Below are positions 9,173 to 35,388 of a stretch of DNA of 64,000 nucleotides, piece after piece. Source of the DNA: Alphaproteobacteria bacterium CG1_02_46_17 (GTDB taxonomy: Bacteria > Pseudomonadota > Alphaproteobacteria > Micavibrionales > Micavibrionaceae). The translations under genes were made by a program, and so were the position numbers. Numbering within the stretch: position 1 is the stretch's first letter; the number at the start of each line of letters is the position of its first letter. The notes under the pieces were generated by a model. That model saw nothing but the letters and a program-made list of their open reading frames with translations. It was not told the origin of the DNA and ran no database searches. The stretch is from the NCBI GenBank assembly GCA_001871905.1, contig MNUG01000029.1, forward strand, positions 32,218-96,217. Direction: 5' to 3'.

Positions 9173-9215
9173 TATGCTACAAACGGGCTTGTCCAAAAAC
9201 AAGGAGATGCCCGTT

Positions 9216-11864: not shown

Positions 11865-11865
11865 A

Positions 11866-12498: not shown

Positions 12499-12503
12499 TC
12501 ACC

Positions 12504-13433: not shown

Positions 13434-13435
13434 AA

Positions 13436-14443: not shown

Positions 14444-14453
14444 CCCCTACCCC

Positions 14454-17545: not shown

Positions 17546-18690
17546 ACCATATCCTTATAAACCAGATCATAATGCGCCCGACCGATCTTTGACCAGTCAT
17601 AGTTAAGAATATCTTCCCGCGCCTGATCTGTCACCATACGCATCCTGTCGCGATTGGAACACGCATCAAGAATTTTAAGTGCCAGTGCCTCGACATCACC
17701 AACATCAACCAGAACGCCGTTACGACCGGAAACAATCACATCTTCGGCCATTCCAACTTTAGTGCTTGCCACAAAGACGCCAGACGCCATCGCCTCCAAT
17801 ATTCCTTTGGGGCCACCTTCTTCCCGCGACGGATTGATATAGACATCCAGCGGCGCAAAACGCGACGGCAAATCCAGATAGTCTTCCAGAAATTCATGGG
17901 CATAAGGAATACCCTCATCATCAAGATGTTTTTTAACAAACCCGCGCGCAGGCCCCGTAAGCAACACAAAAACCGGAACATCTTTTGCCAGTCGTTTGGC
18001 AACATCAACAAGAACATCCGGCCCCTTAATCAGCTTTGGTTCCATCCCGTCACCCCAGCCAACACCATCCTTTTGGAATGACCCGATCACTAACTGGTGA
18101 TCTTTGATACCGTATTTTTCTCGCGCGGCACGACGTTGGGATTCGGAAAAAGGTTTGAACAAATTGCAATCAACACCGATCGGTATGCGTACCAGTTTCT
18201 CGCGTGGCACGCCCCATTCCAGAAGACGGCGTTCAATCAGGCTCGCCGCCGTAATCACTTTGTCCAGATAGGGAAGCCCTTCGAGAAATTCATCGACATG
18301 ACGCGCCATTCCAGCATCATCGGATTTTTTCCCGTGAAAAAACGTGCAAACCATCCTGTTCGAGCGCGCCATATGTTTATACCAGGACACAAATTGAAAC
18401 TGTGACCCGAAATGCGCGATTTTGTGAGACAGTAAAAATGGATTTTCTTCAACCACGATCAAACTAGGGCTGATCTTATCAACCTCCCTAGCCACATAAT
18501 GACCATCCCATTTGATCGACCAATTTCCCTTTTCAATGATAAAGCGCACCGGATGTTTTGAACTATGCGGCAAATGCATCGCATCAGCCATCCGGACAGG
18601 CAACGTAGAAAGCGGATATTTGTAACGTGCCAGCCCCATATCATCTATACCGGAATTTGATTGATTAGAAACAAAGGAATATTGCGCCAT
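17542..18690 (-). CDS. Glycosyltransferase (GT4 family-like)
   Basis: 'DVYINPSREEGGPKGILEAMASGVFVASTKVGMAEDVIVSGRNGVLVDVGDVEAL'. An alternative start at 18639 (MGLARYKY) avoids the long overlap. Confidence 0.85.
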   Translation of the reverse strand: MAQYSFVSNQSNSGIDDMGLARYKYPLSTLPVRMADAMHLPHSSKHPVRFIIEKGNWSIKWDGHYVAREVDKISPSLIVVEENPFLLSHKIAHFGSQFQFVSWYKHMARSNRMVCTFFHGKKSDDAGMARHVDEFLEGLPYLDKVITAASLIERRLLEWGVPREKLVRIPIGVDCNLFKPFSESQRRAAREKYGIKDHQLVIGSFQKDGVGWGDGMEPKLIKGPDVLVDVAKRLAKDVPVFVLLTGPARGFVKKHLDDEGIPYAHEFLEDYLDLPSRFAPLDVYINPSREEGGPKGILEAMASGVFVASTKVGMAEDVIVSGRNGVLVDVGDVEALALKILDACSNRDRMRMVTDQAREDILNYDWSKIGRAHYDLVYKDMV

Positions 18691-19667
18691 AATTTGCGTT
18701 GTGCCGCGATGTCAGATTTTTGCACAAATATCCTGTCAAGAAAAGTAATCCAGTCGGCGACCATACGTTCTGCCGTATGCGGATAACCGGAAATTTTCAG
18801 ACAATAATCCTGATAGTGATCGCGTAGCGCATAAAGCGCAGCCTCGACATCATCGACACCGTTATACCCGACCCCGAATCCGTCACAATATTCAGGCATA
18901 CATCCGGAAAGGCGATACACAATCGGCAACCCGCAGCAGGCACCTTCGTTCTGGTGATTGCCCCCCGGTTCGTTAATTGAGCCAGTCAAATAGGCGTGAA
19001 AACCCCGCAAACGGTCGGCCAGAGCTTCCCCATCCAAGGGTGCAATATGATCGATAGCATTGAACCGATACCCATCCGGCAACCTGCCGATATAGCTCAT
19101 CGAAAAATGCGTGGGAAAATCGGCTTGGCCCAGTAACTGGTCAACCCGTTCATACACATCAAATCCCTTGAATCGGTGATATCCCCAGTGATGAGTGACA
19201 AATTTAAGCGGCCCCGTTCCATCCCAAGGCACGAACCCATTGGCGTGAAATATTTTTTGATCGGCCCCGTTCAAAATGACATCACATCTGGAATGGTCTT
19301 TATTTTTCCAAGCTGGTAAATCCATCAACCAACTACCAACAAAGACTGTGAAATCCGCCGCATAATTGGCACGCAACAGGCGATCAGTAATAAATTTTTC
19401 GCCTTTGCGTTCATCACATTCGTTGATCCTGTGTACCACAAGTGTTTGGGGATACTTCACCAAATGGCGCAGAATTGCTCCCGCCCCGAATGTCACATTA
19501 GGCGAACGCACTCGCGTTTCCACCATCAAAATCACATCAACGTCAGACGATAGATGATGAACCACAGAGTGTCCGCGAGCCGTCATCCCTTCGACCAAGG
19601 CCTGCACAAAGCGGTTTCCACCACCCCATGGCCCGTCATAAGGTTGTTGGTTAATGGCAATAATCAT
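18645..19667 (-). CDS. Glycosyltransferase-like protein
   Basis: 'IIAINQQPYDGPWGGGNRFVQALVEGMTARGHSVVHHLSSDVDVILMVE'; 'GSINEPGGNHQNEGACCGLPIVYRLSGCMPEYC'. Confidence 0.7.
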   Translation of the reverse strand: MIIAINQQPYDGPWGGGNRFVQALVEGMTARGHSVVHHLSSDVDVILMVETRVRSPNVTFGAGAILRHLVKYPQTLVVHRINECDERKGEKFITDRLLRANYAADFTVFVGSWLMDLPAWKNKDHSRCDVILNGADQKIFHANGFVPWDGTGPLKFVTHHWGYHRFKGFDVYERVDQLLGQADFPTHFSMSYIGRLPDGYRFNAIDHIAPLDGEALADRLRGFHAYLTGSINEPGGNHQNEGACCGLPIVYRLSGCMPEYCDGFGVGYNGVDDVEAALYALRDHYQDYCLKISGYPHTAERMVADWITFLDRIFVQKSDIAAQRKLWRNIPLFLINQIPV

Positions 19668-21325
19668 GGCACAACATCCAACTTGATATTCACATCAACC
19701 TGCAAATCCGGATGTGGACGGTGAGACACAACGACAATGGTCATCTGCCCTTTTAAGGAATTTATGACCCCGACAATACCGGACTCGGTGTGTTGATCCA
19801 GATTGGCTGTAGCTTCATCCAACAGCAACACAGAGGGCTTTCTCAATAAAGCCCGCGCCAACGCCAAACGTTGTTTTTGCCCCGCAGATAAACCCTGCCC
19901 CTGTTCAGTCAAAATATGATTCAAACCATCTTTGAATTCGAACACAAAATCCGCATGAACCCGCCGCAAGACCTCTTCCAATTCGGCATCTGTTGAGTGA
20001 ACGTGACCGGATAATAATTGATCTCGAACGGTTCCGGCAATCAAGAAAGGGTCAGACCCGACATAGGAAATCACCTGATTAATCCGCCCATGAATATCCT
20101 GCGCCCCACCATCCTGATGCAACAGCGTCAAATGACCTTGCGTAGGAGAAAGCAACCCCAACAACAAATGGAACAGGGTTGTCTTCCCCGCACCAGACGG
20201 CCCGATAATCATGGCAATGGTTCCGGGTTTAATTTCGAAATTCAAATTATGAATGGCGGTTTCCTTGCCATTTGGCCAGACAAAAGAAAGACCCTCTGCG
20301 CGCCACCCCACCAGATGATGATCTTGCCCATCATTTATCAATGCCGTTTTTCCCAGATCGGAACCCGAAATATTCTCGGCCCACCATTTATACAGCAAGG
20401 AAATGCGAGGGTAATTCAGGCGGAGATTACCGCTTACCCGTGCGAGGTCTGCCAAAACTTGAAACAGCCGCAACACCATATAAAGATAGGCAATCATGGA
20501 CGCCGGATTATCAGGAAAATAAATCGACCCTTGAATGGCAATGATGACGACGACCGCCAACCCCAGAACCTGCGGAATGGACGCCCTCAAATAGGACAAG
20601 GCATAGTAACGGATACTGGCTTGCCCATATTGATCGACCTCCCGATTCACATGGGATATTTCCTGATCCATCAGATTATGCAGCGAAATATAGAGATTGT
20701 TCTTAACAGCTCGCGACAGCAGAGAAACCCCATTGGCCAAAGAACCTTGAATTTGTTTTGAATTGCGACTGACAATCCGGTCAATGATCATTTGAAGCGG
20801 CGCAAACAAAATAATCACCCCGACCACCAGCAAAGTCATCTGAATAGACGACAGCACCAGAACAAGAAATATCCCTCCCATCAAGATCAGACGAGAAAAC
20901 ACATAAAAAATATTACCAATCGAAACAGCCGCACCAATCACAATATCATTGAAATAGGACATCACCTGACCAATTTCCTGACCACCATGCATGATCGCCC
21001 ATCGCGAGAGCATATGACGTTTTTCTGTTTCAACCTGAATCTGGCATTTTCCGGCATAATAGCCATTTGCCCAGATCGTCAATGCCCGCAACAGTCCGGC
21101 CAGAACCAGCAATACGCCTTCTATATAGGGTGAATGCAAATCAATCCCCAAAGGCATTGTGCCACCTGTCTTCACCAATCCGGTCGCCATAAAAAACCGT
21201 TGGGTTAACATCGCAATCGCCAGATCAAAAAAGAACGAGACAAACCCGAGCACAACAACGATCAAACCGTACGCAACAGTATGACTTCCGATAAAGTCGA
21301 ACATTTTAGATAGTTGCGTTTTCAC
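19664..21325 (-). CDS. ABC transporter, fused permease/ATPase
   Basis: Several N-terminal hydrophobic helices. Walker A 'IIGPSGAGKTTLFHLLLG', signature 'LSAGQKQRLALARALL', Walker B 'VLLLDEATANLDQHTE'. Confidence 0.9.
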   Translation of the reverse strand: MKTQLSKMFDFIGSHTVAYGLIVVVLGFVSFFFDLAIAMLTQRFFMATGLVKTGGTMPLGIDLHSPYIEGVLLVLAGLLRALTIWANGYYAGKCQIQVETEKRHMLSRWAIMHGGQEIGQVMSYFNDIVIGAAVSIGNIFYVFSRLILMGGIFLVLVLSSIQMTLLVVGVIILFAPLQMIIDRIVSRNSKQIQGSLANGVSLLSRAVKNNLYISLHNLMDQEISHVNREVDQYGQASIRYYALSYLRASIPQVLGLAVVVIIAIQGSIYFPDNPASMIAYLYMVLRLFQVLADLARVSGNLRLNYPRISLLYKWWAENISGSDLGKTALINDGQDHHLVGWRAEGLSFVWPNGKETAIHNLNFEIKPGTIAMIIGPSGAGKTTLFHLLLGLLSPTQGHLTLLHQDGGAQDIHGRINQVISYVGSDPFLIAGTVRDQLLSGHVHSTDAELEEVLRRVHADFVFEFKDGLNHILTEQGQGLSAGQKQRLALARALLRKPSVLLLDEATANLDQHTESGIVGVINSLKGQMTIVVVSHRPHPDLQVDVNIKLDVVP

Positions 21326-22248
21326 TAATTCGACTCCATAGCACGAACAATTGTCATCCAGTCATTCCGTTCAAACATTTTCTTGGCAGATGTCCGCATC
21401 CGCTCATTCCGTTCATCCGGATTCATATTCTGGATTTGTGCGATAATATCAGGAACATCGGAAACCTTGCGATAGGTGAAAATAGTCGGCAATTCATCAA
21501 TCCCGTAGGCATATGCTTCATCTTCATGATCGCGGATAGCAAAGGAACCGCGCGCAGCAGCCTCCGTATCCTTGATCCATAAGGCATTGCGCGGAATAAC
21601 CTGCCCCTCGACCGTCCACGGCGCATCTTCGGTATGGATATAAATCTGCATATCATGAAGGGCTTCGAGAAACTGGTGATAGGGGCGCGATTTGATAAAT
21701 TCGACATTCAACCCGTAACCTGCCAGCTCATCATAAAATTTCTTACGGTGCGGATGAAGCGTCCCCTGAAACGCCAGATGGTGATGGCGGTTTTCCCATG
21801 TCGGGCCAGCATCACAATAACGTTGCAACATCCCCATCCGGACAAAAGTTGCAGGAACACCGCGCGCCTTACAAAAATCCGTCCACCATCTTGTGGTGAG
21901 AAAAAAAGATACAACATTTAATTTTTCAAGGATGCGCGCATAAGCACCTTTCCACGGCGAATCATCCATGTAAGCCTGCCAGACATCTTGTTCGTAGATA
22001 TAAAGTTGCCCCCCCCCCATAAAACGGGAAATAATATTCAAATTATCGTCAAGGGTTCGCAACTTCAAAACACTTAAAACCTTGTCATACGATTTGGGAT
22101 TGGCCCATGGCAGATATTTTATTTCCTTGAGGGTAATCATCCGCACATCATATTCTTGCTCTAACACCTCGGCCAACTGGCTTTGGTAACAATTTTCGCG
22201 GATATAGCTGCGCGCATCGACCAACAGGAGTAAACTTTTCTTTTTCAT
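21325..22248 (-). CDS. Glycosyltransferase-like protein containing a G10 homopolymer
   Basis: 307-aa ORF starting 'KKKSLLLLVDARSYIRENCYQSQLAEVLEQ', within the operon. On the coding strand ATG is followed by G10 (+ strand C10 at 22009-22018). Confidence 0.6.
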   Translation of the reverse strand: MKKKSLLLLVDARSYIRENCYQSQLAEVLEQEYDVRMITLKEIKYLPWANPKSYDKVLSVLKLRTLDDNLNIISRFMGGGQLYIYEQDVWQAYMDDSPWKGAYARILEKLNVVSFFLTTRWWTDFCKARGVPATFVRMGMLQRYCDAGPTWENRHHHLAFQGTLHPHRKKFYDELAGYGLNVEFIKSRPYHQFLEALHDMQIYIHTEDAPWTVEGQVIPRNALWIKDTEAAARGSFAIRDHEDEAYAYGIDELPTIFTYRKVSDVPDIIAQIQNMNPDERNERMRTSAKKMFERNDWMTIVRAMESN

Positions 22249-23096
22249 GATGCAACTTTAACCTCTGGATCTTGTGTAATGGGCACAATGCAGGAATAAC
22301 GGGTAGTCTGATACCCGATTTTCTTCAACTGGTCGTCACCGGAATAGCTACCACTGACTACGGTCTTCATATTTTCTCTGGAATAGATCGAATAGAATAA
22401 TCCGCCATCATACACACCGATATGCGGATATATTTTAACCATTTCAGCAAAGAAATCTCCTTCGGAAAAATCACCCTGCTGTTCCAGTTTTGTAAAAACA
22501 GCCTTCAATGCCTCCACTCTGTTAAGAGCTGGTAATTTGGCATGTAAATTTGATTTATAAATATGGGGCAATGATGTTTTTTTGAACCACGCCTTTTCGT
22601 TGGTTACCAGATTAAGCAATCTGATCTCCGACCGCGTGACGTGGAAAGGCAAAAATTGTAACCCCTTATCAAACCGCCAGCGCCACCGCACTGAAAATTC
22701 CTGTGTCCGCACGCAAGATGCATCAGGACAGGCATCCAGAAATTTTTCACATTCGGCCAAGGCTTTCAAATCCGTATGATAAAGATCAGATTCAACCATA
22801 TAAATATATTTGTATGATCGACCCATCACCTGTGGCGCATTCTCCAGCACCCATTTGATTGCAGTCCAGTATCCAATATTCTCTGCCGATTGAATGATCT
22901 TGGTTCCCTGCGGCACATATTGGATATGATCTTTGAACGCAGACGCATTATCAAACAAGATAAAATCATTCGACAATCCGGCATCGGGAATTTTATCTGC
23001 CAGATTCTGCACCACCCGCACCGCCAGATCACGCCGCGATTCATCCATCGAACAGGTCACAAGGCACACAAGTGTTTGTTGTGGCAAATCAGTCAT
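22245..23096 (-). CDS. GT-A-like glycosyltransferase/hypothetical
   Basis: 'LVCLVTCSMDESRRDLAVRVVQNLAD...FILFDNASAFKDHIQ...ENIGYWTAIKWVL...IYMVESDLYHTD'. Start 23096 (MTDLPQQ) preferred over 23111. Confidence 0.6.
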   Translation of the reverse strand: MTDLPQQTLVCLVTCSMDESRRDLAVRVVQNLADKIPDAGLSNDFILFDNASAFKDHIQYVPQGTKIIQSAENIGYWTAIKWVLENAPQVMGRSYKYIYMVESDLYHTDLKALAECEKFLDACPDASCVRTQEFSVRWRWRFDKGLQFLPFHVTRSEIRLLNLVTNEKAWFKKTSLPHIYKSNLHAKLPALNRVEALKAVFTKLEQQGDFSEGDFFAEMVKIYPHIGVYDGGLFYSIYSRENMKTVVSGSYSGDDQLKKIGYQTTRYSCIVPITQDPEVKVAS

Positions 23097-23098
23097 CT

Positions 23099-23644
23099 TT
23101 ATTTCTTCCACTCGGACGCCAACAGCCCCATGGCCACCAGATTTTTATATACGCCGTCACGGAAAATGGCTTCGCGCCGCACGCCTTCTTTTACAAACCC
23201 CAGACTGGTATAAAGATTAAGCGCCCGATCATTATCTTCGAGTGTTACCAATTCCACACGGTGCAATCGGCAAGCCCCGAACAGATACGACAAAATATAA
23301 TTATAAAATTCACGGGCATAGCCCTGACGCTGATAATCTGGCGCAATATCGCACCCGACAAACGCATTGCCATTGATATAGTCAATCGAGTCCACACGGA
23401 ACATGCCGATAAATTCATCCGTACCGCGCAACCGCGCCACATAGCGACGCGATGACCGTGAGGTCGAAGCCGATTTGAACCATGCCTCTTGCTGTTCTTC
23501 GGACACATGGGTCGGATCGGTCAACCGCATCAACACATCATCTGCGTTATGCATGACCCGCAAGTCTTCCAGATCACGCTGTTCCATCAAGCGGATCACC
23601 AGACGAGACGATCCATCATTTTCCAAAGGTTTCAAGTCGTTCAT
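23099..23644 (-). CDS. GNAT-family N-acetyltransferase (PseH/RimJ-like)
   Basis: 'LVIRLMEQRDLEDLRVMHN...GNAFVGCDIAPDYQRQGYAREFYNYILSYLFGACRLHRVELVTLEDNDRALNLYTSLGFVKEGVRREAIFRDGVYKNLVAMGLL'. Confidence 0.85.
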   Translation of the reverse strand: MNDLKPLENDGSSRLVIRLMEQRDLEDLRVMHNADDVLMRLTDPTHVSEEQQEAWFKSASTSRSSRRYVARLRGTDEFIGMFRVDSIDYINGNAFVGCDIAPDYQRQGYAREFYNYILSYLFGACRLHRVELVTLEDNDRALNLYTSLGFVKEGVRREAIFRDGVYKNLVAMGLLASEWKK

Positions 23645-24387
23645 ACCAAATCCCCATACTGACCATGAATAAATTTCAAAACAGCGCCTTCGCGCAACCG
23701 AGTGTCTTCAAGAGACAAAAAAGATTTGGCAAAATTTTTTGCCGCATAACCACGACCACCAAAATTCCACCACTTAACAGACGCCGCCCCAGCCAACGCC
23801 CAGCCACGCGCAGCATCCCGATGTTTGAGCCACGCAATCGCCACACGTCGCAAAACTTGTTTTTGACGTTTCATCTGACGATGAAAGCCAAAATGAAAGG
23901 CCTGACGCGCTGTCGGATTTTTGCCATGCCACGCAATCGGCGCCAGATGACGGACAACATCACCTTTCAAGACCATTTTATGGCCCGTATCAGCATGATC
24001 AGCAAACAGCTTTCTTTTAGACTTCCTGAAAACAACCGCCGTAGAAAACGCATTTAACCCCGCAATCAGATCATCCGTAAAATAATCCTGCATGAGAATC
24101 TGCGCGCCCGTCACATCCGGATTTTGAAAGAGCGCCACAATATCAGCCAATGCCGTATCCCGCATCAAAACAGTATCGGCATCAATTTTAACGAACAGAT
24201 CATGGCTTCCCTTTTGGTCATTCCATGCTTGCCACAACATATTATGGGCTTCATATTCAGGCTGATCCCGAATAACATGATGCGTCACAAGGACATTTTT
24301 TTGATTTTGAATCGCCTGACAACATTCATCGAATTCAGCCTCGCCGCAGGCAAGAGTCCCAACAAATATGCGCGGCAGATCCTGCAT
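23641..24387 (-). CDS. GT2-like glycosyltransferase/hypothetical
   Basis: 'RIFVGTLACGEAEFDECCQAIQNQKNV...HDLFVKIDADTVLMRDTAL', with a DxD motif. Confidence 0.6.
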   Translation of the reverse strand: MQDLPRIFVGTLACGEAEFDECCQAIQNQKNVLVTHHVIRDQPEYEAHNMLWQAWNDQKGSHDLFVKIDADTVLMRDTALADIVALFQNPDVTGAQILMQDYFTDDLIAGLNAFSTAVVFRKSKRKLFADHADTGHKMVLKGDVVRHLAPIAWHGKNPTARQAFHFGFHRQMKRQKQVLRRVAIAWLKHRDAARGWALAGAASVKWWNFGGRGYAAKNFAKSFLSLEDTRLREGAVLKFIHGQYGDLV

Positions 24388-24413
24388 GAAGACACCTTTG
24401 ATCTTGTTTGAAG

Positions 24414-25577
24414 CTAAGCGGCGTTCCGCAAAGCTTTCTCACACAATTCCAGAACACGGGTGGCGATATGCTCGCAATCCTCAGCGCCCAACCACCAGCC
24501 ACAAGGCAAAGAAATCTGGGTGCTGGCAAATTTATGTGTTTCCGGCAAATCGGTCAGCGACTCTTTGAAAGCACTGTAGGAATCATTGGGCATATGCACC
24601 AGACCTGCCGCAATTCCTTCTTGATTCAAAGCTTCCAGTAACAAATCCCGATCAATCTGGGGGTCATTGACCAAAGCGGTAAACACCCAGAAGCTCGATG
24701 TCGCTTGCGAAGGAACATCCAGAGAGTGGATCACGTTGCTATTAGCAAAACATTTCTGATAGACAGCCGCATTGGCGCGGTGTGCATCAATCAATTTGCC
24801 GATATAAGGCATTTGCGCCAAACCGATCGCCGCCGCAACATTGTTCATATTGAATTTATATCCGACTTCACCGGGGAAAATATCGGCGCTCCAACGCTGT
24901 CCCTTCCACTCGCCCTTTTCGTCCTTATGAGCATCGCGGTCATAACCGAACCATTTCAGTTTACGCGCCAACTCGAAATCTTTCTCGTCTCGGCAGATCA
25001 AGGCTCCGCCATCTCCAGATGACAGATGTTTAATCGCTTGAAAAGAATAACAGGTAAAATCCGAAAATTCGGAAACAGGGCGACCATTCCATCTGGAATC
25101 AAACGCATGCGCCGCGTCTTGCACCACCGGAATATTGTGCCGTTTGGCAACATCAGCAACAGCTTCCAGATCACAGGGCGTTCCTGCCCAACTGACAATC
25201 ACAATCGCTTTTGTTTTCGGTGTAATTTTGCGTTCGATATCTTTCGGGTCAATTGATCCGGTATTGGCATCAATATCCGCCCAGACAATTTTTGCGCCCA
25301 GATTGTCAATCGGCGTATTGGTTGCAATGCACGTCATTGCAGTGGTAATGACTTCTGTATCCGGCCCGACACCACAGATCTTATAAGCCATGGTCAACGC
25401 ACTGGTACAAGAATTCACCACAACCAGATTGGTAACCCCCAGATGTTCTTTCAACGCATTCTGGAATTGGGTAACCTGAAGGCCTTCATTGATAAATCCG
25501 GATTCCAGCACTTCACGAATACCCACCAGAGCATCCTCGACAGGAACATGAACTTTGAACAGGGGGTATGATTTCAT
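24414..25577 (-). CDS. DegT/DnrJ/EryC1/StrS-family PLP aminotransferase
   Basis: 'VNSCTSALTMAYKICGVGPDTEVITTAMTCIATNTPIDNLGAKIVWADIDANTGSIDP...VVQDAAHAFDSRWNG...FQAIKHLSSGDGGALIC' (Lys in the cofactor loop). Confidence 0.92.
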   Translation of the reverse strand: MKSYPLFKVHVPVEDALVGIREVLESGFINEGLQVTQFQNALKEHLGVTNLVVVNSCTSALTMAYKICGVGPDTEVITTAMTCIATNTPIDNLGAKIVWADIDANTGSIDPKDIERKITPKTKAIVIVSWAGTPCDLEAVADVAKRHNIPVVQDAAHAFDSRWNGRPVSEFSDFTCYSFQAIKHLSSGDGGALICRDEKDFELARKLKWFGYDRDAHKDEKGEWKGQRWSADIFPGEVGYKFNMNNVAAAIGLAQMPYIGKLIDAHRANAAVYQKCFANSNVIHSLDVPSQATSSFWVFTALVNDPQIDRDLLLEALNQEGIAAGLVHMPNDSYSAFKESLTDLPETHKFASTQISLPCGWWLGAEDCEHIATRVLELCEKALRNAA

Positions 25578-25586
25578 TTTTCCACC

Positions 25587-26633
25587 TTACGCTTGTTTGC
25601 GGGTTTTAACGATCTCGTCAATTTCCAGACCAATAAATTTATTCATATCTGTTTCAAAAATATTGATCGAATTCAAGTAAGCCTCAAGCCCTGCCTGATC
25701 CAGAACATCATCATTCGATCCATAACTGAATATTTTTGCATCCAGGGCTGGCATCACATGGGACGGCGCCATATGATAATAATCACCACTATCTGTGACA
25801 CGCACAGATTCAGGTGAGCTAATCAGCTCCTCGAACAATTTCTCGCCCGGGCGCATCCCGATCACATCGACAGGCTTATCGAATTTGGACGAGAAGATTT
25901 GTGCCAGATCCATAATGTTCATGGCACGCAATTTCGGCAGCCAGATCTCACCGGATTTGGCCCCTTTGGCAGTCGCCACGATCAAATCAATACTTTCATC
26001 CAAGGTCATAATGAAACGGGTCATTTCAGGATGGGTAACGGTAAACCGTTCTGCATTCTCAGCTTGCCACCGAAACAATGGAATAATCGATCCACGCGAT
26101 TCCAGAACGTTCCCGTAACGCACGCCAACGAATTTAATCGGCGAACCGGAAATGCTCTGGCTGGTCACAACCCGTTCAGAGATAGCCTTACACATTCCAT
26201 AGACATTGGTTGGAGCGCAGGCCTTATCGGTCGAGACCATCAGAACTGTTTCCAGATTAGGCAGGCGGTCTTCCTGACGCACAACGGCATTCACCACATT
26301 GTGAATTCCCAGAGTGTTGGTCTGAATACTTTCAAATGGAGAGCGTTCACAGGTATCAACTTGCTTCAACGCCGCCGCAATCAGAATGATATTCGGCTTC
26401 CATTTCAAGACAATTTCTTCAACCCGCGCACCATCGCGAATATCACCGACCTCGAACACCACATTTTGTTGGGGGGTCAATTGGTTGCGGATCGTCCAGT
26501 GTTTTGCTTCATCACGGGAATATACAATCAGTTGGTTGTCCTCGGACAAACGACGGATCAATGCCCGTCCCAAGGAACCTGTTCCACCGATAATCAGAAT
26601 CTTTTTATTCTGGAAATTCATTAACTGCCTCAA
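25587..26633 (-). CDS. UDP-GlcNAc 4,6-dehydratase-like (PseB/CapD family)
   Basis: 'ILIIGGTGSLGRALIRRLSEDNQLIVYSRDEAKHW'; 'AAALKQVDTCERSPFESIQTNTLG'; 'VSTDKACAPTNVYGMCKAISE'. Confidence 0.9.
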   Translation of the reverse strand: MRQLMNFQNKKILIIGGTGSLGRALIRRLSEDNQLIVYSRDEAKHWTIRNQLTPQQNVVFEVGDIRDGARVEEIVLKWKPNIILIAAALKQVDTCERSPFESIQTNTLGIHNVVNAVVRQEDRLPNLETVLMVSTDKACAPTNVYGMCKAISERVVTSQSISGSPIKFVGVRYGNVLESRGSIIPLFRWQAENAERFTVTHPEMTRFIMTLDESIDLIVATAKGAKSGEIWLPKLRAMNIMDLAQIFSSKFDKPVDVIGMRPGEKLFEELISSPESVRVTDSGDYYHMAPSHVMPALDAKIFSYGSNDDVLDQAGLEAYLNSINIFETDMNKFIGLEIDEIVKTRKQA

Positions 26634-26735
26634 ATAATTTATAAATACCGTCCAAATGTCCGGTCATGATTGCATTAAGATATACAGGCTCTTGTTTAGT
26701 AAAGATTAAGGGCTTTGACCAGTTAAAAATAGAGA

Positions 26736-26758
26736 AAGCCCCCAATTTCTGGGGGCTT
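26736..26758 (-). terminator. Intrinsic terminator
   Basis: Perfect 8-bp stem AAGCCCCC-AATTTCT-GGGGGCTT. On the minus strand it is followed by the T-rich tract TTTCTCTATTTTTAA. Confidence 0.8.
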
Positions 26759-26786
26759 GTCTATAAAGCTCGAAAACTCGCTAAAC

Positions 26787-27017
26787 TTATTGCGGCGCAC
26801 GATCCTGAGATGGGCTGGCCTGTTGAAGTGGGGCAGGCATCATCGCAGCTACACGTTTTTCGTAATATTCAGCCAATGCCGCAGAAATATCTAAAGCAGA
26901 CCATGGAGCCTCAGTGGCAATAGCCTGAAGAACAGGTAATTCCACTAATTTTTCGTCATATATTTTTTGCGAGAGGGAACAATATGTCAACTTGCATTTT
27001 CGGTCAAGAAATACCAT
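26787..27017 (-). CDS. Small hypothetical protein (76 aa)
   Basis: Lies between the methyltransferase stop and the terminator at 26736-26758. Pro/Gln-rich C-terminus; overlaps the upstream gene by 31 bp, so the start is uncertain. Confidence 0.4.
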   Translation of the reverse strand: MVFLDRKCKLTYCSLSQKIYDEKLVELPVLQAIATEAPWSALDISAALAEYYEKRVAAMMPAPLQQASPSQDRAPQ

Positions 27018-27805
27018 CCGACACTATGCTCTGGGCGTTTTTCAACAAATCTATGCTTCCAGCGTTGAAAATAACGGTAAAGGCGCGGGGAAATGACCGC
27101 ACTGAGCGCAATCAGGCCATTAACCGGCAAAGATGGCACAATCGGATACAATTCCCCCGTCACCTTTAAGCCGGCACTGGCCAATTCCTCATTCAAGGTC
27201 TCTACCGAATATTCGATTTTGTGATCGTCATCATCGCGGCTATCAACCCCGAACTTGCGTTGGAACATCTTCCACGGCGTATTGGTATTGGGGATTGAAA
27301 TATACATTTGCCCGTCGGCTTTCAATATCCGGCGCAGCTCGGTCAAAATCGTCTGACGATTGTTCAAATGCTCCAACACATTTGAAAAACTAATCAAATC
27401 GACCGAATGGTCAGGCAACGGAATAGATGCCAATTCCAAATTCAAATCAAAAATATCATACTGGCCTTTATAGTCGGCCAGCCGTTCATGGGACAAAATG
27501 ATCGAGGATTTATTATATTCAACCCCGTAAACCTGTGACGCCCCGCTTTTCAAGGCATTGAGGCATTCCGAACCGCTCCCAGAACCAATATCCAGAAAAA
27601 CCATGCCGGGACGCACCAAAGACGCCAGAAACTGATTGCGCTGATCATCAAACAAGTGTTTGGGGTGAATGGGATGTTTGGAGTGCCCCAGCCATTTCAT
27701 GGCGCGCATTGATAAGCCTGTCAGGCGTTTATCCTGATATTTAAGCAACTTGATAAGGGGACGCATAAAATAAGTCGTTACAGAGTTACGAGGCATCTCA
27801 CCCAT
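26987..27805 (-). CDS. Class I SAM-dependent methyltransferase
   Basis: 'GMVFLDIGSGSGSECLNALKSGASQVYGVEYNKSSI...VDLISFSNVLEHLNNRQTILTELRRILKADGQMYISIPN'. Confidence 0.88.
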   Translation of the reverse strand: MGEMPRNSVTTYFMRPLIKLLKYQDKRLTGLSMRAMKWLGHSKHPIHPKHLFDDQRNQFLASLVRPGMVFLDIGSGSGSECLNALKSGASQVYGVEYNKSSIILSHERLADYKGQYDIFDLNLELASIPLPDHSVDLISFSNVLEHLNNRQTILTELRRILKADGQMYISIPNTNTPWKMFQRKFGVDSRDDDDHKIEYSVETLNEELASAGLKVTGELYPIVPSLPVNGLIALSAVISPRLYRYFQRWKHRFVEKRPEHSVGWYFLTENAS

Positions 27806-27892
27806 TCCCTTTCATAAAACAGAGCCAAAAAGCAGCGCAGACATTATCACCACATAAAAATTCAGGCTACCAATTTTCTATCGCCAAACAAC

Positions 27893-29176
27893 ATGCCAGC
27901 GTTTATAGTCACCCCACAAAATTTTAAGATAGAACACACCAACCCGATAAACATGACTGAACATTGGCTAGCCCTCTCTTTGAAATCCAACCTCACAGGA
28001 ATTCTGATCCTGAGTGTCATATTTATATCCTGCATCTTGCCCCTGACCTTATCCTTTCTGCCGCAGACAATGGGATTGATCGGTGCAGCAGTCCTCTATA
28101 AAAGAATGGGTAGAAAAATCTTCGCCCCCCTCTCAAAAGCCCATCTTGTTCTATTATTGATCCCGATTCTGACCATGGCCAGTTCCATCTGGTCGATCAC
28201 GCCGGAATCGAGCCTGATCCGATCCCTTAAAATCAGCGGCGAAATCCTGTCCTTTTTCCCACTCTATATCTTCTTATACGCGTTGCCTGATGACACCACA
28301 TCTTTCATCAAGAAATATCTTCCGGTTCCGTTAATTCTGGGCGGAACTTTTCTTGCCATTGAACTGGTTCTCGATTTTCCGATCTCCCGTATTTTGCGCC
28401 CGTCCCATACCGAATTCAGTACTTGGGAGCTGAACAAAAGCGTTGCTGTTTTTATCCTGATGACTCCTCTCGCCTTGATCACGACCCTGATCCCGTTCAA
28501 AAAAGCAAACTGGAAGCACTATAGGCTACCTCTGCTGCTGCTTATCCCTGCGGCTTTTATATTAAGCGCAACAGCCAGCCAGTCTGCCCAGCTCTCTGTC
28601 ATCGCCATGATTGTGGCCCTGATCGGCATGATCAAGTTGCCCCGTCTGGCTTTGCCCCTATGTTTTGGTACAGTTATTCTGCTTTTTTCAATTTTTCCAT
28701 GGGTCACCACACCTCTTTATAAGAGCTTTGCCAAAGAGAGCGATCAGGTTCAGATTCTAAAAGACGCCAGCACCAGCACACGGCTTGAGGTCTGGGACTT
28801 TGTCGCCGACAAGATCCATGAAAACCCGTGGACAGGATTCGGAATTGATACCACCCGCATCATCCAATTCGATTATCCGATGGTCTATTACTGGGACACC
28901 AGTATCATGCACCCGCATAATGCCCCTCTTCAGCTCTGGATCGAGTTTGGCGCCTTAGGCGCCCTGCTCGCAGATACTTTGTTGCTCACCTTGTTTCTTT
29001 CCATCAGACGCCGCCCTCTCGCCGCGCAGATTCTCCCGACCGTTGTTTTCTCGGGAATCCTGATTTTCCTGATTTTATCATGGTCTTTGTGGTCAAGCTG
29101 GCTGATCGGATTGATGATCTTTCTGACCTGCATTATGAGCTCTTTGAACAAGCCCCCTGAACCTTCCGCCCATTAA
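27893..29176 (+). CDS. O-antigen ligase/polymerase family membrane protein (WaaL/Wzy-like)
   Basis: Polytopic hydrophobic protein with the Wzy_C-like signature 'STSTRLEVWDFVADKIHENPWTGFGIDTTR...HPHNAPLQLWIEFGALGALLA'. The start may be ATG 27953. Confidence 0.85.
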   Translation: MPAFIVTPQNFKIEHTNPINMTEHWLALSLKSNLTGILILSVIFISCILPLTLSFLPQTMGLIGAAVLYKRMGRKIFAPLSKAHLVLLLIPILTMASSIWSITPESSLIRSLKISGEILSFFPLYIFLYALPDDTTSFIKKYLPVPLILGGTFLAIELVLDFPISRILRPSHTEFSTWELNKSVAVFILMTPLALITTLIPFKKANWKHYRLPLLLLIPAAFILSATASQSAQLSVIAMIVALIGMIKLPRLALPLCFGTVILLFSIFPWVTTPLYKSFAKESDQVQILKDASTSTRLEVWDFVADKIHENPWTGFGIDTTRIIQFDYPMVYYWDTSIMHPHNAPLQLWIEFGALGALLADTLLLTLFLSIRRRPLAAQILPTVVFSGILIFLILSWSLWSSWLIGLMIFLTCIMSSLNKPPEPSAH

Positions 29177-29268: not shown

Positions 29269-30486
29269 ATGGCAAGCTTTTGGGAAGACCTGAAATCATC
29301 TTCATCCTATCGAGCTCTGGTTCGCGCTGCGGATGCTGCCCCTACCCCTGTAAATACAATCAGCCACATGATGGATCAAACCCACGAGACCAAAGTCCTG
29401 AAAGATGGCATAGCCGAAGGAACTGCCGCTACCATCGGATATGCTCTCGGCCTTCCCCAGATGATTCATAGGTTTTATAAAGAACATACCGACGGTAAAA
29501 AATTCGAACAGGCTCCGGAAGATCAAAAATATTCTTCGGAATGGTTCAAAAGACAAATGATGGGCGAGTACGAGGATAATCTCGAAATCCTTGGCAAAAA
29601 GCGTCCCGAATTAAGAGCAGGTACGAATGACGGATATATCCACTTTGGAGGACAGATGGTTCCTCTGGTCGGGTCATTCTTTATCCCCGGGGGTCAGGCT
29701 TTGGGAGCCTCCAAAGTGGCGCAGGTCATAGGTACTGTCGCCCCTAAAGCTGGAGTCATAGGTTTTGCGACAGAGACAGCCATTGAAGGGTACGAAATAA
29801 CAGAAGATTATTTGGGCTTCGGGCAAACAATGCACAACAAAGTTGGTTTTGGTATCACGACAGACGCAGCCACTCAGACCATTGCCGCAACAACTGAAGG
29901 GGCTGAAGCGAAGGCAAAGAAACCCAATGAAGACCGAGGACAGATCAAACTTGCGTCTCACGAGATTTCAGCACCAAAACAATCCACATCAACTGTGCCA
30001 CAAACAGCAAAAATTCTGGGATTGGCTCTCGGGAATGACCTTATCGATTCGGAAAACCCCACCCAGTTCAACAAAGACGGTGTTCACGCACTTCAGGAGC
30101 TTTTGACAGATAAAAAACTATACACGCATACAATTGATGACATCGCAGGCAAATACACCATGCAGGCCGCCGATAAAGCTATCAAGGACGCGATCAAGCC
30201 ATCGAGTCTGACTGAGGATTTGCGGGCCCAATATGAAACCCGCATGAAAGATCTGGCGAAAGACCTGCGGGAACAACCCGCCAACCCATACGGATATGAC
30301 CCCCGGGTCATGGCCTTGCAGACCTGTGGCTACGCCCTAGGCCTATATAATAAGAGCATTGATGGTCTGGTAGGAGATTCAACCACAAAGGCGATCCATC
30401 TCATTGAAAACAAAGAGTTAAGTGAAACAAAACCGATTATGACGACCCGGCAGAACGCGCCTGCCGCGCCTGCACCAGTCGTATAG
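29269..30486 (+). CDS. Hypothetical protein with central Gly-rich hydrophobic segment and two PG_binding_1-like C-terminal repeats
   Basis: 'MVPLVGSFFIPGGQALGASKVAQVIGTVAPKAGVIGF'. Repeat-like segments 'VHALQELLTDKKLYTHTIDDIAGKYTMQAADKAI' and 'VMALQTCGYALGLYNKSIDGLVGDSTTKAIHLI' match the LQ...L...G.Y...IDG..G..T..A pattern. Confidence 0.65.
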   Translation: MASFWEDLKSSSSYRALVRAADAAPTPVNTISHMMDQTHETKVLKDGIAEGTAATIGYALGLPQMIHRFYKEHTDGKKFEQAPEDQKYSSEWFKRQMMGEYEDNLEILGKKRPELRAGTNDGYIHFGGQMVPLVGSFFIPGGQALGASKVAQVIGTVAPKAGVIGFATETAIEGYEITEDYLGFGQTMHNKVGFGITTDAATQTIAATTEGAEAKAKKPNEDRGQIKLASHEISAPKQSTSTVPQTAKILGLALGNDLIDSENPTQFNKDGVHALQELLTDKKLYTHTIDDIAGKYTMQAADKAIKDAIKPSSLTEDLRAQYETRMKDLAKDLREQPANPYGYDPRVMALQTCGYALGLYNKSIDGLVGDSTTKAIHLIENKELSETKPIMTTRQNAPAAPAPVV

Positions 30487-30501
30487 GGAATAAAAAGCGG
30501 T

Positions 30502-30516
30502 CATAGTTCTATAAAA
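30502..30516 (+). promoter_or_regulatory. Repeated AT-rich upstream element, copy 2 (CATAGTTCTATAAAA)
   Basis: See copy 1 at 29232-29246. Confidence 0.4.
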
Positions 30517-30578
30517 GTTTGCAATATTCAATAGAGCTATGATAAAATGCAATTAACATATTAAAAATGGAGTGTGTG

Positions 30579-31418
30579 ATGGGGTTATTCAAAAGAGTTA
30601 AAGCAGGTTATGAAGCCTTCAAAGACGCCGAGCGTATAGCGCACCAGCCAGCCGTTGATGCTGCTGTTGAGGCCGCAAAGAAAAAGCCCATTACAGACGC
30701 AAATGCAGTTGCAGATTATCTGGAAAGCGTAAAAAAAGGTGAGCGCGGAGCAGAAACTACTGCAGGAGCTGCTGGCCACGGAGCCGGTAAGCCACCAACC
30801 TCGGCTCCTCCTGTCACCGCACCAATGACCCCCGGATTTGGTGGTGCTGTGGGTGGAATAATGGGGTTCGCAAATCACCTGCCCAGCTGGATCAAGAAGC
30901 CCCTTGTAGCCACAGCTTTAGGGTATGGTCTTCTTGTTGACAATCCATTCACTCCGGGAACGGAAGGGATGGCCGTTCAGGCAGGTAAGCAATTGTACGG
31001 GGTCGTGGAAGGCAAGCCACAGGCTGAGATTAAACAACAAATCAGTCAGGCCAAGCAAAGTGAGCAATTGGTTAGTGCCCAACAAGGTTCGGTTGCCGTT
31101 GCACAAAAAGCAGGACGTGCATTTCTGACTGGAGAAACACCAGAAGTCAGCATAGATCAAGCAGCAACGAAATTTGGCTCATTGATTAAGTCCCAAATTT
31201 CTACCACAACGGACAGCATCACAACCTACGAGAGCAGATTCAAAAGTATTCTGCAGGAACAAATTGACCAGAATAAAGACTCTATGCTACAGCCAGCTGA
31301 AGGAAAAGGCTTGGCATCATCCCAGAGCTTTATTGGTCTGATTAACGACCTACCAATGGATGATAAGCAAAAAGCGTACGTGGCAAGCCAAACTCTTGCT
31401 ATGAGCGGGTACAAATAA
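30579..31418 (+). CDS. Hypothetical protein with Gly/Pro-rich linker and central hydrophobic segment
   Basis: Complete ORF. Preferred start ATG 30579 (MGLFKRVKAGYEAF), preceded by GGAGTGTGTG; the ORF track starts at 30567. 'GFGGAVGGIMGFANHLPSWIKKPLVATALGYGLLV'. Confidence 0.65.
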   Translation: MGLFKRVKAGYEAFKDAERIAHQPAVDAAVEAAKKKPITDANAVADYLESVKKGERGAETTAGAAGHGAGKPPTSAPPVTAPMTPGFGGAVGGIMGFANHLPSWIKKPLVATALGYGLLVDNPFTPGTEGMAVQAGKQLYGVVEGKPQAEIKQQISQAKQSEQLVSAQQGSVAVAQKAGRAFLTGETPEVSIDQAATKFGSLIKSQISTTTDSITTYESRFKSILQEQIDQNKDSMLQPAEGKGLASSQSFIGLINDLPMDDKQKAYVASQTLAMSGYK

Positions 31419-31467
31419 GATATTTAGAAATCAAGTGTTAAGACATAAGAATTAAGAGAGGGCAAAA

Positions 31468-32310
31468 ATGGCTAACGATCAAACAACACCGGCAGGTTCC
31501 GCAGCAGTTCAGGATCCAAACGGAATCGCCTTACAAGGTCTAATCCGCGGAATAAGTGAGCTCGACCCGAACTCACGGGATATTTCCGTCGAGATGATGC
31601 GTCTGTTTGAAGGATATTACAAACAGACTGGTAATATGCAACTTGCAGATAACGTGAACAAAGTTCTCAAGCTCGCGCAAGAAGGGAAATATGACCTTCG
31701 CAAAACTTTTGGTCAATCCGCTCAGGAGATCTGGAAGCTTGCAAGAACAACCGAGCAAGACCTTCAGAAAAAAGATCACAGTCAATACCAAGATCTCTAC
31801 TACAGCACTCAACAACAAAGAATATCCGCAGAACTTGATGTTCAAACAATGATTATCAAAGGGGCAGCTAGCGGATACAAACTACTCGCTATGATAGGCT
31901 CAATTGTGTCCGCGATCCCTGGGTTGGAAGAGATTGGCAAGAATTTGGTCGATACCTCCATTCAAGCTTCCAAGGATCTGAAAGTGGATAAAATTGAAGA
32001 AGACGCCGTTCGTCAATCAGATCGTAACAATGCCAGAACACCAAAAATTGGTGAAGTCTCTGGTGCAGATGCTGCCAAGAAAGCAGAGGATCTGATCAGG
32101 AAAGTCATGGATGATGCAAAGATCGTCGGCGAATCGAGAACCTCACAGCGCGCAAGCGGAGGAACAAACCCAGATAAGGCAAGCACATTCAGTGCAAACG
32201 GCGCAGCCGCAACAGCCCCATCTGAAACAACACCTTCGGCTGCCACAGAAAAACCTGCAATATGCAACACGACCTTTGGTAGTAAAATGCCAGAATGTCA
32301 GCCAAGTTAA
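31468..32310 (+). CDS. Hypothetical helical protein with central hydrophobic segment
   Basis: Complete ORF with RBS GAGAGGG; 'MIIKGAASGYKLLAMIGSIVSAIPGLEEIGKNLV'. An intrinsic terminator follows. Confidence 0.65.
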   Translation: MANDQTTPAGSAAVQDPNGIALQGLIRGISELDPNSRDISVEMMRLFEGYYKQTGNMQLADNVNKVLKLAQEGKYDLRKTFGQSAQEIWKLARTTEQDLQKKDHSQYQDLYYSTQQQRISAELDVQTMIIKGAASGYKLLAMIGSIVSAIPGLEEIGKNLVDTSIQASKDLKVDKIEEDAVRQSDRNNARTPKIGEVSGADAAKKAEDLIRKVMDDAKIVGESRTSQRASGGTNPDKASTFSANGAAATAPSETTPSAATEKPAICNTTFGSKMPECQPS

Positions 32311-32329
32311 GCGACTAATAACAATCCAA

Positions 32330-32357
32330 CCCCCGCTTTGGCGGGGGTTTTTCTTTT
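32330..32357 (+). terminator. Intrinsic terminator
   Basis: CCCCCGC-TTTG-GCGGGGG followed by TTTTTCTTTT. Confidence 0.9.
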
Positions 32358-32517
32358 GCCGCATCATTCCTGAAAAGTTTGCAAATTATGTCACGAATGT
32401 GGCATACTCTTTTCACGCGATGACATACGAAAAATTAACCGGCAATAAAAACAAACAGACCGGAATAGATGTTATCCAAACGGCAAGTGTGAAATAGAGA
32501 ATAAAGGAGTGTGTGCG

Positions 32518-34272
32518 ATGTCTCATCCCACAAAAAGTGTATACAACTCATTGCGAGATGAGGATGAGAAGTCTTTGGTGCCTGCGCCATTGGACGAAAA
32601 AGCAGAAATTGAAAATCTGCAAAAACGGCGCGTATTGTTTCTGAATGAACTCAGAGATATGCAGCAGCCAACACAAGAGCAGATCGACTTTTCTCTGTCG
32701 ATGTATAGGAATATCCTTAATCTCGAAGCATCTCGTCTGGCCGAGCTTCGCGAGCAAATCACGAAAAAGGTGATAGATATCGAGAAAAACCAGACCGCCA
32801 TAGAAGATCTATTGCAAAATCTGGATAACGAGCAGGATCGCCAGATCATGCAAGACGCCCTTGCCCACAATCAGGCCTTGATCGAAGATGAAAATAAAAA
32901 GATCAAAACCACATCTCGCTTGAACCGCCTGATCGACCAGCAGATTTCCCGCGCCACCACAGAGGCCACCAAAAAAATTGAAGCGGCAGCATCGGCTCCC
33001 CCAACAGCTGCTCTCTCAGAACAACAGGAAAAAGCTCCTGAAAATCACGAATTGAAACAGTTGCAAGACAAGCTGTTAAAAGAAGCTTTGCAAGCGCAAA
33101 AACTTACCTCGGCTACGGTACAACAAATCTGGCAGAACAGCGATCCGCACCTTCTGGATAACCGCCTGTCTGTTCCGATCTCAAACGCAGCAAGAGAAAT
33201 TAACGCACGTCTGGCCCAAGGGTTAAAGGATGAGACAACTTTACTGTTGATCGACCATCGCCGTTTGTTGATGAAATTTCAAAGTGAAGTCATGGCGAAG
33301 TTCGATTGCTCCATCGAAGACCATGCCGATGCGGAAGAAGAACCCGACGATCTCGCCGCCATAGTGAATTACAACCCGTTTAACTCGCAAGAACTGGAAC
33401 AACGTGCGTTATATGCATGGGAAACTGCGCGCAAGTCAGAACCTGAATTTTTGAATAACTTCCTGATCCATTCCATCCTTGATGATCGGGACGAAGCCCT
33501 TGCATACCGCAGGCAAGCACAAAGAACAGGAGCCGACACAAGGCCCGTTGATGCCTTCCTTAAGAAAACCGGACAAGCCACGCAACTTGCCCACCAGCGA
33601 ATCGTTGACGCAGGCCTAACCCCCAGAAGCAGATCCGTGATTGACGACATGTTTGAGGAGAAAACACTAGATGATTCTTCAGAAGAAATTTCGATGCCCC
33701 AGAAAACCATCGTTGAAAAAGTTGGGATTTTCTTTTCCGGACTGAAAAAGCAATTCAGTGAAGCCGCAAAAAATACTATGGCCGCCCTGACACCGAGAGT
33801 TCCATCAGGATTCGCCACCGGCGCTGTCGCAAGCATGGCCAGCGTAGCCGCAATCAGTTTGTCGATGATGTTCAATACCGGAGCCAGCCAGACAGAATCT
33901 CCTGTTCAAAAAATCGATGCCCCGACGACAACCTCTTCAATCGCAAAAAACGCCGCAGCACCCAAAATGCACGGGGACTATACGCTTGAAGAAGCACAAA
34001 ATATTCTGAAAGCATCAGTCGTACAACCGGAGAGCAAAGCATCCCGCCAGATTGCACCCAAACAGCAAGCTGACACGTCCCAACCAGTCAGTGTGAGCTT
34101 TAAGGCCAAAACCAATCCGGAACAAAAACCCATAGTTTCTGTCTCTACAGAGCAAACAAGGTTCAGTTCCCAGACATACGAAGCGGCATGCAATGAAGTT
34201 CACGCCAACAATTCGGCTGCGGCAAAAACCTGTTATAAAATCGCGATGGATACACCAAGGGAATTTCTGTAG
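32518..34272 (+). CDS. Hypothetical coiled-coil protein with one predicted TM segment
   Basis: Long Glu/Gln/Lys-rich N-terminus; hydrophobic 'FATGAVASMASVAAISLSMMF' near the C-terminal third. Preferred start ATG 32518 (MSHPTKSVYN) after GGAGTGTGTGCG; the ORF track starts at 32509. Confidence 0.65.
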   Translation: MSHPTKSVYNSLRDEDEKSLVPAPLDEKAEIENLQKRRVLFLNELRDMQQPTQEQIDFSLSMYRNILNLEASRLAELREQITKKVIDIEKNQTAIEDLLQNLDNEQDRQIMQDALAHNQALIEDENKKIKTTSRLNRLIDQQISRATTEATKKIEAAASAPPTAALSEQQEKAPENHELKQLQDKLLKEALQAQKLTSATVQQIWQNSDPHLLDNRLSVPISNAAREINARLAQGLKDETTLLLIDHRRLLMKFQSEVMAKFDCSIEDHADAEEEPDDLAAIVNYNPFNSQELEQRALYAWETARKSEPEFLNNFLIHSILDDRDEALAYRRQAQRTGADTRPVDAFLKKTGQATQLAHQRIVDAGLTPRSRSVIDDMFEEKTLDDSSEEISMPQKTIVEKVGIFFSGLKKQFSEAAKNTMAALTPRVPSGFATGAVASMASVAAISLSMMFNTGASQTESPVQKIDAPTTTSSIAKNAAAPKMHGDYTLEEAQNILKASVVQPESKASRQIAPKQQADTSQPVSVSFKAKTNPEQKPIVSVSTEQTRFSSQTYEAACNEVHANNSAAAKTCYKIAMDTPREFL

Positions 34273-34317
34273 ATAAAAATACAGACAAGAACAATCCGGC
34301 ATTTTCAAAGGTGAGTC

Positions 34318-35388
34318 ATGAGTGAAAATGACAAAAGAACAGCAGAAACACACCTCTCTGCTAAGGCTGCAAGATTAGGATCATACAAAAATCTGTCAGA
34401 GAGAATTCTCCTGCTGGACGACCGTCAGCTTATGCTGAAACGTCTTCTGGCCATGAATAATCTCTTGAAAAAGGACGGCGGGAAATCTCGGGACTTTCTG
34501 GAATTCAGACTCGAGATTGCAAGGAAATATCTCGATGTAAAGAAGAGTCTCCAACACTCCCCCTCTGTCACCCCAACACCTCAAAGAAATTTTTTTAGCC
34601 CAAAGAAACTGGCTCTTGCAAGTGCGATATTGACCTCAAGCTTTATCATGGCAACACTGGCCCCTACTTTATTGCCGGAAAAAACCTCCCCCTCCTCTAC
34701 AAACCAGAATGTCATTCCACTAACAAAACTCACAAGAGTTATTCTGCCAGACCAAAGTGTCAAAACAGTTGATCTGACCAAAGATCAAAAAATGCCGGAT
34801 GAAAAAACAATCAGAGAAACATTCAATAGATCCATTCACCGTCTGCTGACGAAGACCGATGGCATGGGATATGGATTAAAAGCAGATGGCCGGAACGGTA
34901 GAATTAATTGCAGCCATTTTGTTGCCAAAGGGTTGCAATACGCAAAAAAAGATTTAGACCACCATCTTGAAGTCAATCTGGATTTGGGAGGAATGTCCAC
35001 AACATCGTCGGGCATTTTCTGGACTTTTGCAAAATCCGGAAAATATCTGAAAGGTCAGGAGATCAACCCCAACACCATCAAGTCCGGAATGGTTCTGACC
35101 GTTGATTCCGGCCCAAAATGGTATGATAAAGGCCGCCCCTTGGGTATTGACCATATTCTGATTACCTACCGCGATCAAAAAACCAATATTCTGATGGTTG
35201 CCCAAAGCGAAACCGGTCGCGGCCCACACGCCACACCTTTGGATGACTGGCTGAAAATCGCCCGAAAACGTAACTACAAATTATTTGCGACGGATCCCTT
35301 GGCCAAAATCGCAGAAATCCAGCCCGTTCCAGACCATGTTGTCGAGAGCTATCGCTTCCCGTTCCTACATAAATCCCCAAACCGGTAG
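34318..35388 (+). CDS. Membrane-anchored NlpC/P60 or CHAP-like cysteine hydrolase candidate
   Basis: Single TM 'LALASAILTSSFIMATLAPTLL', then 'NGRINCSHFVAKGLQYA' (Cys198) and 'SGMVLTVDSGPKWYDKGRPLGIDHILITYRDQKTNILMVAQSETGRGPHATPLDDWL' (His279). The order matches the Cys-His arrangement of NlpC/P60. Confidence 0.65.
   Translation: MSENDKRTAETHLSAKAARLGSYKNLSERILLLDDRQLMLKRLLAMNNLLKKDGGKSRDFLEFRLEIARKYLDVKKSLQHSPSVTPTPQRNFFSPKKLALASAILTSSFIMATLAPTLLPEKTSPSSTNQNVIPLTKLTRVILPDQSVKTVDLTKDQKMPDEKTIRETFNRSIHRLLTKTDGMGYGLKADGRNGRINCSHFVAKGLQYAKKDLDHHLEVNLDLGGMSTTSSGIFWTFAKSGKYLKGQEINPNTIKSGMVLTVDSGPKWYDKGRPLGIDHILITYRDQKTNILMVAQSETGRGPHATPLDDWLKIARKRNYKLFATDPLAKIAEIQPVPDHVVESYRFPFLHKSPNR

Follow-up and report, generated by a model that had tools for sequence, protein, structure and literature searches.

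What do five consecutive genes that belong to no curated family encode between an O-antigen ligase gene and lepA in a Micavibrio-like alphaproteobacterium, and do they belong together? The question is raised by a stretch of 64,000 nucleotides from Alphaproteobacteria bacterium CG1_02_46_17 (contig MNUG01000029.1, positions 32,218 to 96,217), hereafter the window, whose source genome comprises 2.07 Mb in 40 contigs. The five genes, named P1 to P5 in plus-strand order, form a gene set that is conserved in the genus; P1, P2 and P3 have been transferred together in one relative, peptidoglycan hydrolase signatures recur in the clusters, and a helical unit of the P4 type is built into one of the hydrolases. 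In our judgement the prospect is about even that the set encodes an envelope assembly that is specific to the lineage and equipped with a peptidoglycan hydrolase of its own. In this study, the cluster was compared across 11 genomes of the genus and 96 others, making up 107 genomes of the family Micavibrionaceae, in which G000 denotes the window genome.

Conservation and gene order in the genus

Co-occurrence of the genes in related genomes, chosen beforehand as the key test of the original prediction, was observed. P2-like and P3-like genes adjoin in ten genus genomes (the P3 of G001 and the P2 of G006 being called mainly by position), and the P3 profile matches nine of the 11 genus genomes (E <= 1e-22) and none of the 96 other family genomes. 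In G009 the P1-P2-P3 block is relocated (E 3e-25, 3e-15 and 2e-31) and flanked by an M16 peptidase gene and dapB, these neighbours being named by eye; because the three genes are found there as a block elsewhere, they are regarded as a unit. P4 family members are present in G000, G004, G003, G010 and G006, and matches to the P4 profile are confined to the genus.

The order P1-P2-P3-P4-hydrolase-lepA is fixed in G000, G004 and G010, with P1-P2-P3-P4-NlpC in the first two and P1-P2-P3-P4-SLT-NlpC in the third, and the other genus genomes show variants: P1-P2-P3-P4 in G003; a 189-aa gene, P3 plus a P2-like gene on the opposite strand, P4 and NlpC in G006; a P1 of another type on the opposite strand, followed by P2-like, P3 and SLT genes, in G005; a P1 of the G005 type, P2 and P3 in G002; P2 (partial), P3 and a P4-like protein in G007; and P2, a gene that is P3-like by position only, an SLT protein with a twin-arginine translocation (Tat) signal and a P4-like protein in G001. 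In G003, G010 and G006 the cluster is flanked directly by purH and lepA, and across the genus the set is for the most part located between these two genes.

Orthologues of P1 are carried by Micavibrio sp. UBA6212 (G004, 96% identical), Micavibrio sp. UBA5572 (G003, 62%) and the metagenome-assembled genome SZUA-429 (G010, 53%). The lepA product of the window is 93-94% identical to its counterparts in G003 and G010, P1 53-62% and P4 27-29%; the set is conserved in the genus yet diverging extremely fast. Relatives of P3 remain alignable over the full length down to 14-22% identity, and the two P3 groups are joined by hhalign at E 6e-4 over 231 columns.

Peptidoglycan hydrolases and the helical unit of P4

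P5 had been predicted to combine a transmembrane segment with a Cys...His pair in an NlpC/P60-like context, and both elements were found, Cys198 and His279 being unchanged across 5 to 6 divergent homologues. In PDB, the P5 domain profile matches Spr/MepS best, precisely on the Cys motif (E 0.1-0.17), the MepS model matches two of five P5 homologues (best E 0.0033), and the G020 homologue gives an NLPC_P60 match that is below the cut-off (E 0.003); P5 itself has no Pfam match to NlpC/P60. These sequence features make it likely that P5 is a diverged NlpC/P60-type enzyme preceded by a transmembrane segment. Like the NlpC/P60 endopeptidases (E. coli MepS/Spr), it has a Cys motif where a helix begins, together with a conserved His; unlike them, it bears an N-terminal helical part and an internal transmembrane segment in place of a lipoprotein signal, and its matches are sub-threshold. 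Three further genera have the NlpC-like domain as well. Hydrolase clusters (GH108, NlpC-like, M23 and SLT-like) were seen together with unrecognised proteins near succinyl-CoA ligase genes in G012 (L014:4665-11509) and G020 (L015:3766-10533), and their NlpC members are close P5 homologues outside the genus.

The type of hydrolase varies with the genome, being NlpC/P60-like in G000, G004 and G006, SLT in G005 and G001, and both in G010. The SLT domain (PF01464) of the G010, G005 and G001 clusters scores above the Pfam cut-off and relates these homologous clusters to SLT lytic transglycosylases, whereas the window cluster has no SLT domain; the SLT domain of G010 and G005 is preceded by a helical N-terminal region and a hydrophobic segment, that of G001 by the Tat signal.

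P4 has a long helical N-terminal part and, by hydropathy, a single transmembrane segment, and its tail contains Cys558 and Cys572. An HMM (hidden Markov model) built from P4 proteins alone matches aa 25-121 of the SLT hydrolase G005_12 (E 6e-8), and a P4 search of whole genomes located the same N-terminus (E 2e-7). The SLT and NlpC proteins of G010, G006 and G005 share a common N-terminal region (hhalign 97.9%). The simplest reading of these similarities is that the P4-type unit may be an adaptor domain docking hydrolases to one partner.

P1, P2 and P3

The two PG_binding_1-like repeats claimed for P1 are both visible, and the PF01471 match recurs in four of four orthologues; it is sub-threshold (19.7 bits against a gathering cut-off of 23), and the first repeat was recognised by eye. 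The C-terminus of P1 resembles HxsA and PG_binding_1 proteins in weakly matching TIGR03979 and PF01471 over the repeats; unlike HxsA, it scores 16.9 bits against a cut-off of 121.65, with only the repeats covered. Profile searches of PDB with P1 and with its C-terminus returned only coiled-coil and BAK noise. A central Gly/Ala-rich hydrophobic stretch had been expected in each of the first three proteins; it appears as hydropathy peaks in P1 and P3 but is not clear in P2. An EF-hand-like loop (DQNKDSMLQPAE) was spotted by eye at aa 230 of P2, and members of the P2 family reach 871 aa.

Many P3 homologues and hydrolases without a signal (e.g. L013, L014, L030 and L086) were seen by eye to carry a short, alternating hydrophobic stretch at the C-terminus (ALELA, AFELS, KLELQ, ALNLN, ALEINT). 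These endings could be a common export signal, a candidate that was dropped.

Gene calls and genomic context

The five plus-strand genes were confirmed with the coordinates and lengths listed in Table 1. All five have ratios of nonsynonymous to synonymous substitution (dN/dS) of 0.10-0.24 against their UBA6212 orthologues (91-98% identical), among them 0.17 for P1, 0.14 for P2 and 0.24 for P5, and plausible purine-rich ribosome-binding sites precede all five starts. Because of this purifying selection and these sites, the five open reading frames are taken as genes and not as chance. As had been stated from the sequence, no family could be named for P1 to P4: none of the five proteins scored above a Pfam or NCBIfam cut-off, PHROG matches were weak, and a PADLOC scan of P1 to P5 gave nothing convincing, the sole match being AbiTi for P3 (E 0.021). 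AlphaFold models of P1 and P5, built from alignments of three and four sequences, were poor (mean predicted local distance difference test score, pLDDT, about 40-45; P5 39.8), and Foldseek with these models gave no meaningful match.

The upstream neighbour, a Wzy_C O-antigen ligase gene, closes an 18 kb island for lipopolysaccharide (LPS) and O-antigen biosynthesis that separates purH from P1, and lepA is the downstream neighbour. O-antigen-type genes likewise stand upstream of P1 in UBA6212; in G003, G006 and G010 an LPS island is not at this position. The base composition of the cluster resembles that of its surroundings.

Table 1. Positions in the window of the five genes, their features and the upstream region
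Feature	Position	Strand	Remarks
purH	9174-10802		
LPS/O-antigen biosynthesis island	10944-29176		ends with O-antigen ligase gene
P1, 405 aa	29269..30486	+	open reading frame; Gly/Ala-rich hydrophobic centre and two PG_binding_1-like repeats at the C-terminus
P1 hydrophobic Gly/Ala-rich stretch, aa 130-168	29656..29772	+	hydropathy peaks 1.14, 1.27
P1 PG_binding_1-like repeat 1, aa 272-307	30082..30189	+	by eye in alignment; no separate profile match
P1 PG_binding_1-like repeat 2, aa 346-381	30304..30411	+	Pfam PF01471 E 1e-3, sub-threshold
P2, 279 aa	30579..31418	+	open reading frame; C-terminal EF-hand-like loop
P3, 280 aa	31468..32310	+	open reading frame; most widely conserved of the five
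P3 central hydrophobic stretch, aa 139-157	31882..31938	+	hydropathy 1.46; hydrophobic in aligned relatives
P4, 584 aa	32518..34272	+	long helical N-terminal part, one transmembrane segment, Cys-bearing tail
P4 helical unit, about aa 186-258	33073..33291	+	also at N-terminus of G005 SLT hydrolase
P4 transmembrane segment, aa 434-452	33817..33873	+	hydropathy 1.57
P5, 356 aa	34318..35388	+	N-terminal helical part, transmembrane segment, NlpC/P60-like domain
P5 transmembrane segment, aa 98-116	34609..34665	+	hydropathy 1.71
P5 divergent NlpC/P60-like domain, aa 166-326	34813..35295	+	Cys198, His279

A different gene set in the same interval of other genera

In other genera of the family, the purH-lepA interval often contains a hydrophobic protein of ~200 aa, a giant of 1,100-2,100 aa and one or two members of a small-protein family. 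In their N-terminal region, the giants are homologous to the internal virion protein D of Autographiviridae, a gp16-like ejection protein. With tblastn against 50,697 phage records, the giants matched LUZ100 gp47 (E 6e-6 and 3e-7) and two Pelagibacter phages (E 2e-3 and 5e-3); an HMM of the giants made from bacterial sequences only gave 129 bits for LUZ100 gp47 and 76 bits for HTVC142P gp35, and hhalign aligned the giants with internal virion protein D at 99.7% over 394 columns, column-shuffled controls giving nothing. The gp16-like domain was found in 22 of the 107 family genomes, covering 11 genera but not that of the window, and among 387 sampled alphaproteobacteria only in two members of Micavibrionaceae, with one further marginal match. 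The giant set and the P3-type set do not co-occur in any of the 107 genomes.

Giants were located at L057:6782-11080 (G016), L047:3653-8476 (G013), L059, L045, L065 and L079-L081, and the giant of G015 lies outside the purH-lepA interval. The small proteins (~105-160 aa) carry the motif FHNKPF..LSWLEFDL and often occur in two copies between the giant and lepA (L049:2574-2936 and L049:3002-3475, with counterparts in many further genera); those of them that were scanned against Pfam, PHROG and PADLOC gave no match. A 434-aa protein of G103 (L078:8605-9909) has a gp16-like domain together with a P1d family match (E 8e-6), and thereby ties the giants to the smaller proteins that the first genes of G011, G014 and G022 encode. 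Two candidate relationships were rejected: a gp14 role for the ~200-aa first genes of other genera was dropped when hhalign to gp14 was negative, and an apparent homology of P1 with the gp16-like domain, to which one profile gave E 0.02-0.6, vanished with a broader profile.

The proposed assembly and its alternatives

In the proposed envelope assembly, P4 and P5 would reside in the inner membrane, with the N-terminal helical part probably cytosolic and the C-terminal part periplasmic. P5, or the SLT enzyme in relatives, would cut peptidoglycan locally, the C-terminal repeats of P1 would bind peptidoglycan, and P1 to P3, which have hydrophobic stretches and no recognised signal peptide, would form a core assembling at or through the envelope, to which the P4-type helical unit would tether the hydrolases. 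Topology, complex formation and envelope crossing or transport are what we infer; action against prey would be a guess, suggested solely by kinship with Micavibrio. The earlier view of a cell-wall-acting assembly is supported as regards peptidoglycan targeting by P5, by the SLT hydrolases of relatives and, weakly, by P1; the surface apparatus, export link and effector role that it had also offered are conjectural.

Several observations weigh against this assembly. The domain calls of P5 and P1 are sub-threshold, and the P1 of G000 has no detectable homology with the P1 of G005, G002 and G009. P1 to P3 are without recognisable folds or export signals, and their envelope location can therefore only be put forward conditionally. 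The G003 and G002 clusters have no hydrolase, the G009 triad has neither P4 nor hydrolase, and a hydrolase in the cluster is therefore not obligatory in these genomes. One genus genome, G008, yielded no P3, P4 or P5 by profile.

A rival explanation is a polar or cell-division-linked complex that remodels the peptidoglycan of the cell's own wall and has no delivery role: such a task would suit hydrolases that are anchored in the inner membrane, have helical domains in the cytosol and act with a partner that binds peptidoglycan, and the stable site beside lepA and a base composition like that of the surroundings agree with it. However, a divergence of P1 and P4 so far above that of lepA would be unusual for core division factors, and we regard this explanation as unlikely. 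Hydrolases that adjoin unrecognised Gly/Ala-rich proteins, and the weak similarity to tail-protein PHROGs seen in P4 and in a P3 homologue (E 2e-3), could instead point to a prophage or mobile-element remnant whose structural or lysis genes were retained in the chromosome. Such an origin appears very improbable, given that the reading frames are intact and under purifying selection at a position conserved across the genus, that P1, P3, P4 and P5 gave no tblastn match in the 50,697 phage records, and that inspection of the window open reading frames recognised no capsid, terminase, portal or integrase gene, and no tRNA was present. No described system or prophage module matches the set, in agreement with the original prediction that no known system explains it.

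The giants introduce another explanation, namely that the purH-lepA interval holds alternative trans-envelope delivery modules, functionally akin to podoviral ejection proteins, and that the window set is one variant breaching prey or partner cells. It draws on the gp16-like giants detected by tblastn, HMM and hhalign in the same interval, on the lack of co-occurrence of the two sets in the 107 family genomes, and on the fact that ejection proteins diverge fast and exchange peptidoglycan-hydrolase domains (PMC8954989). Like the T7-type ejectosome (gp14/gp15/gp16), the window set combines hydrophobic proteins with a peptidoglycan hydrolase and diverges rapidly, and related genera have gp16-like homologues in the interval; unlike it, the set has five genes with separate hydrolase genes and no capsid or tail. 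Comparisons by HMM and hhalign gave no homology of P1 to P4 with gp14, gp15, gp16-like proteins or the giants, and the lack of phage matches noted above counts here as well. Because the window proteins have no homology to ejection proteins, what links them to this explanation is the common interval, in itself weak evidence for a common function. The interval and the absence of co-occurrence allow equivalent function without establishing it, and the explanation is therefore kept as a rival, albeit an improbable one. Its wider form, in which purH-lepA is a dedicated site for chromosomal ejectosome-like machines that breach other cells, some genera use giants that derive from podoviral internal virion protein D or are shared with it, and P1 to P5 are an independent or extremely diverged equivalent, we consider distinctly doubtful.

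Significance

In the open PMC literature, subscription papers being outside reach, no account was found of the cluster, nor any description of homologues of ejection proteins from such bacteria. The gp16-like giants are noteworthy by themselves, as they occur in 22 of 107 family genomes and in essentially no other sampled alphaproteobacteria. The window set, for its part, is a fast-diverging set with dedicated hydrolases, situated in an interval that in sister genera houses relatives of a phage ejection protein. The published genome of M. aeruginosavorus encodes type I and type II but no type III or type IV secretion systems (PMC3189940). The cluster offers concrete genes with which to test how the epibiotic predators of the Micavibrio group get into their prey.

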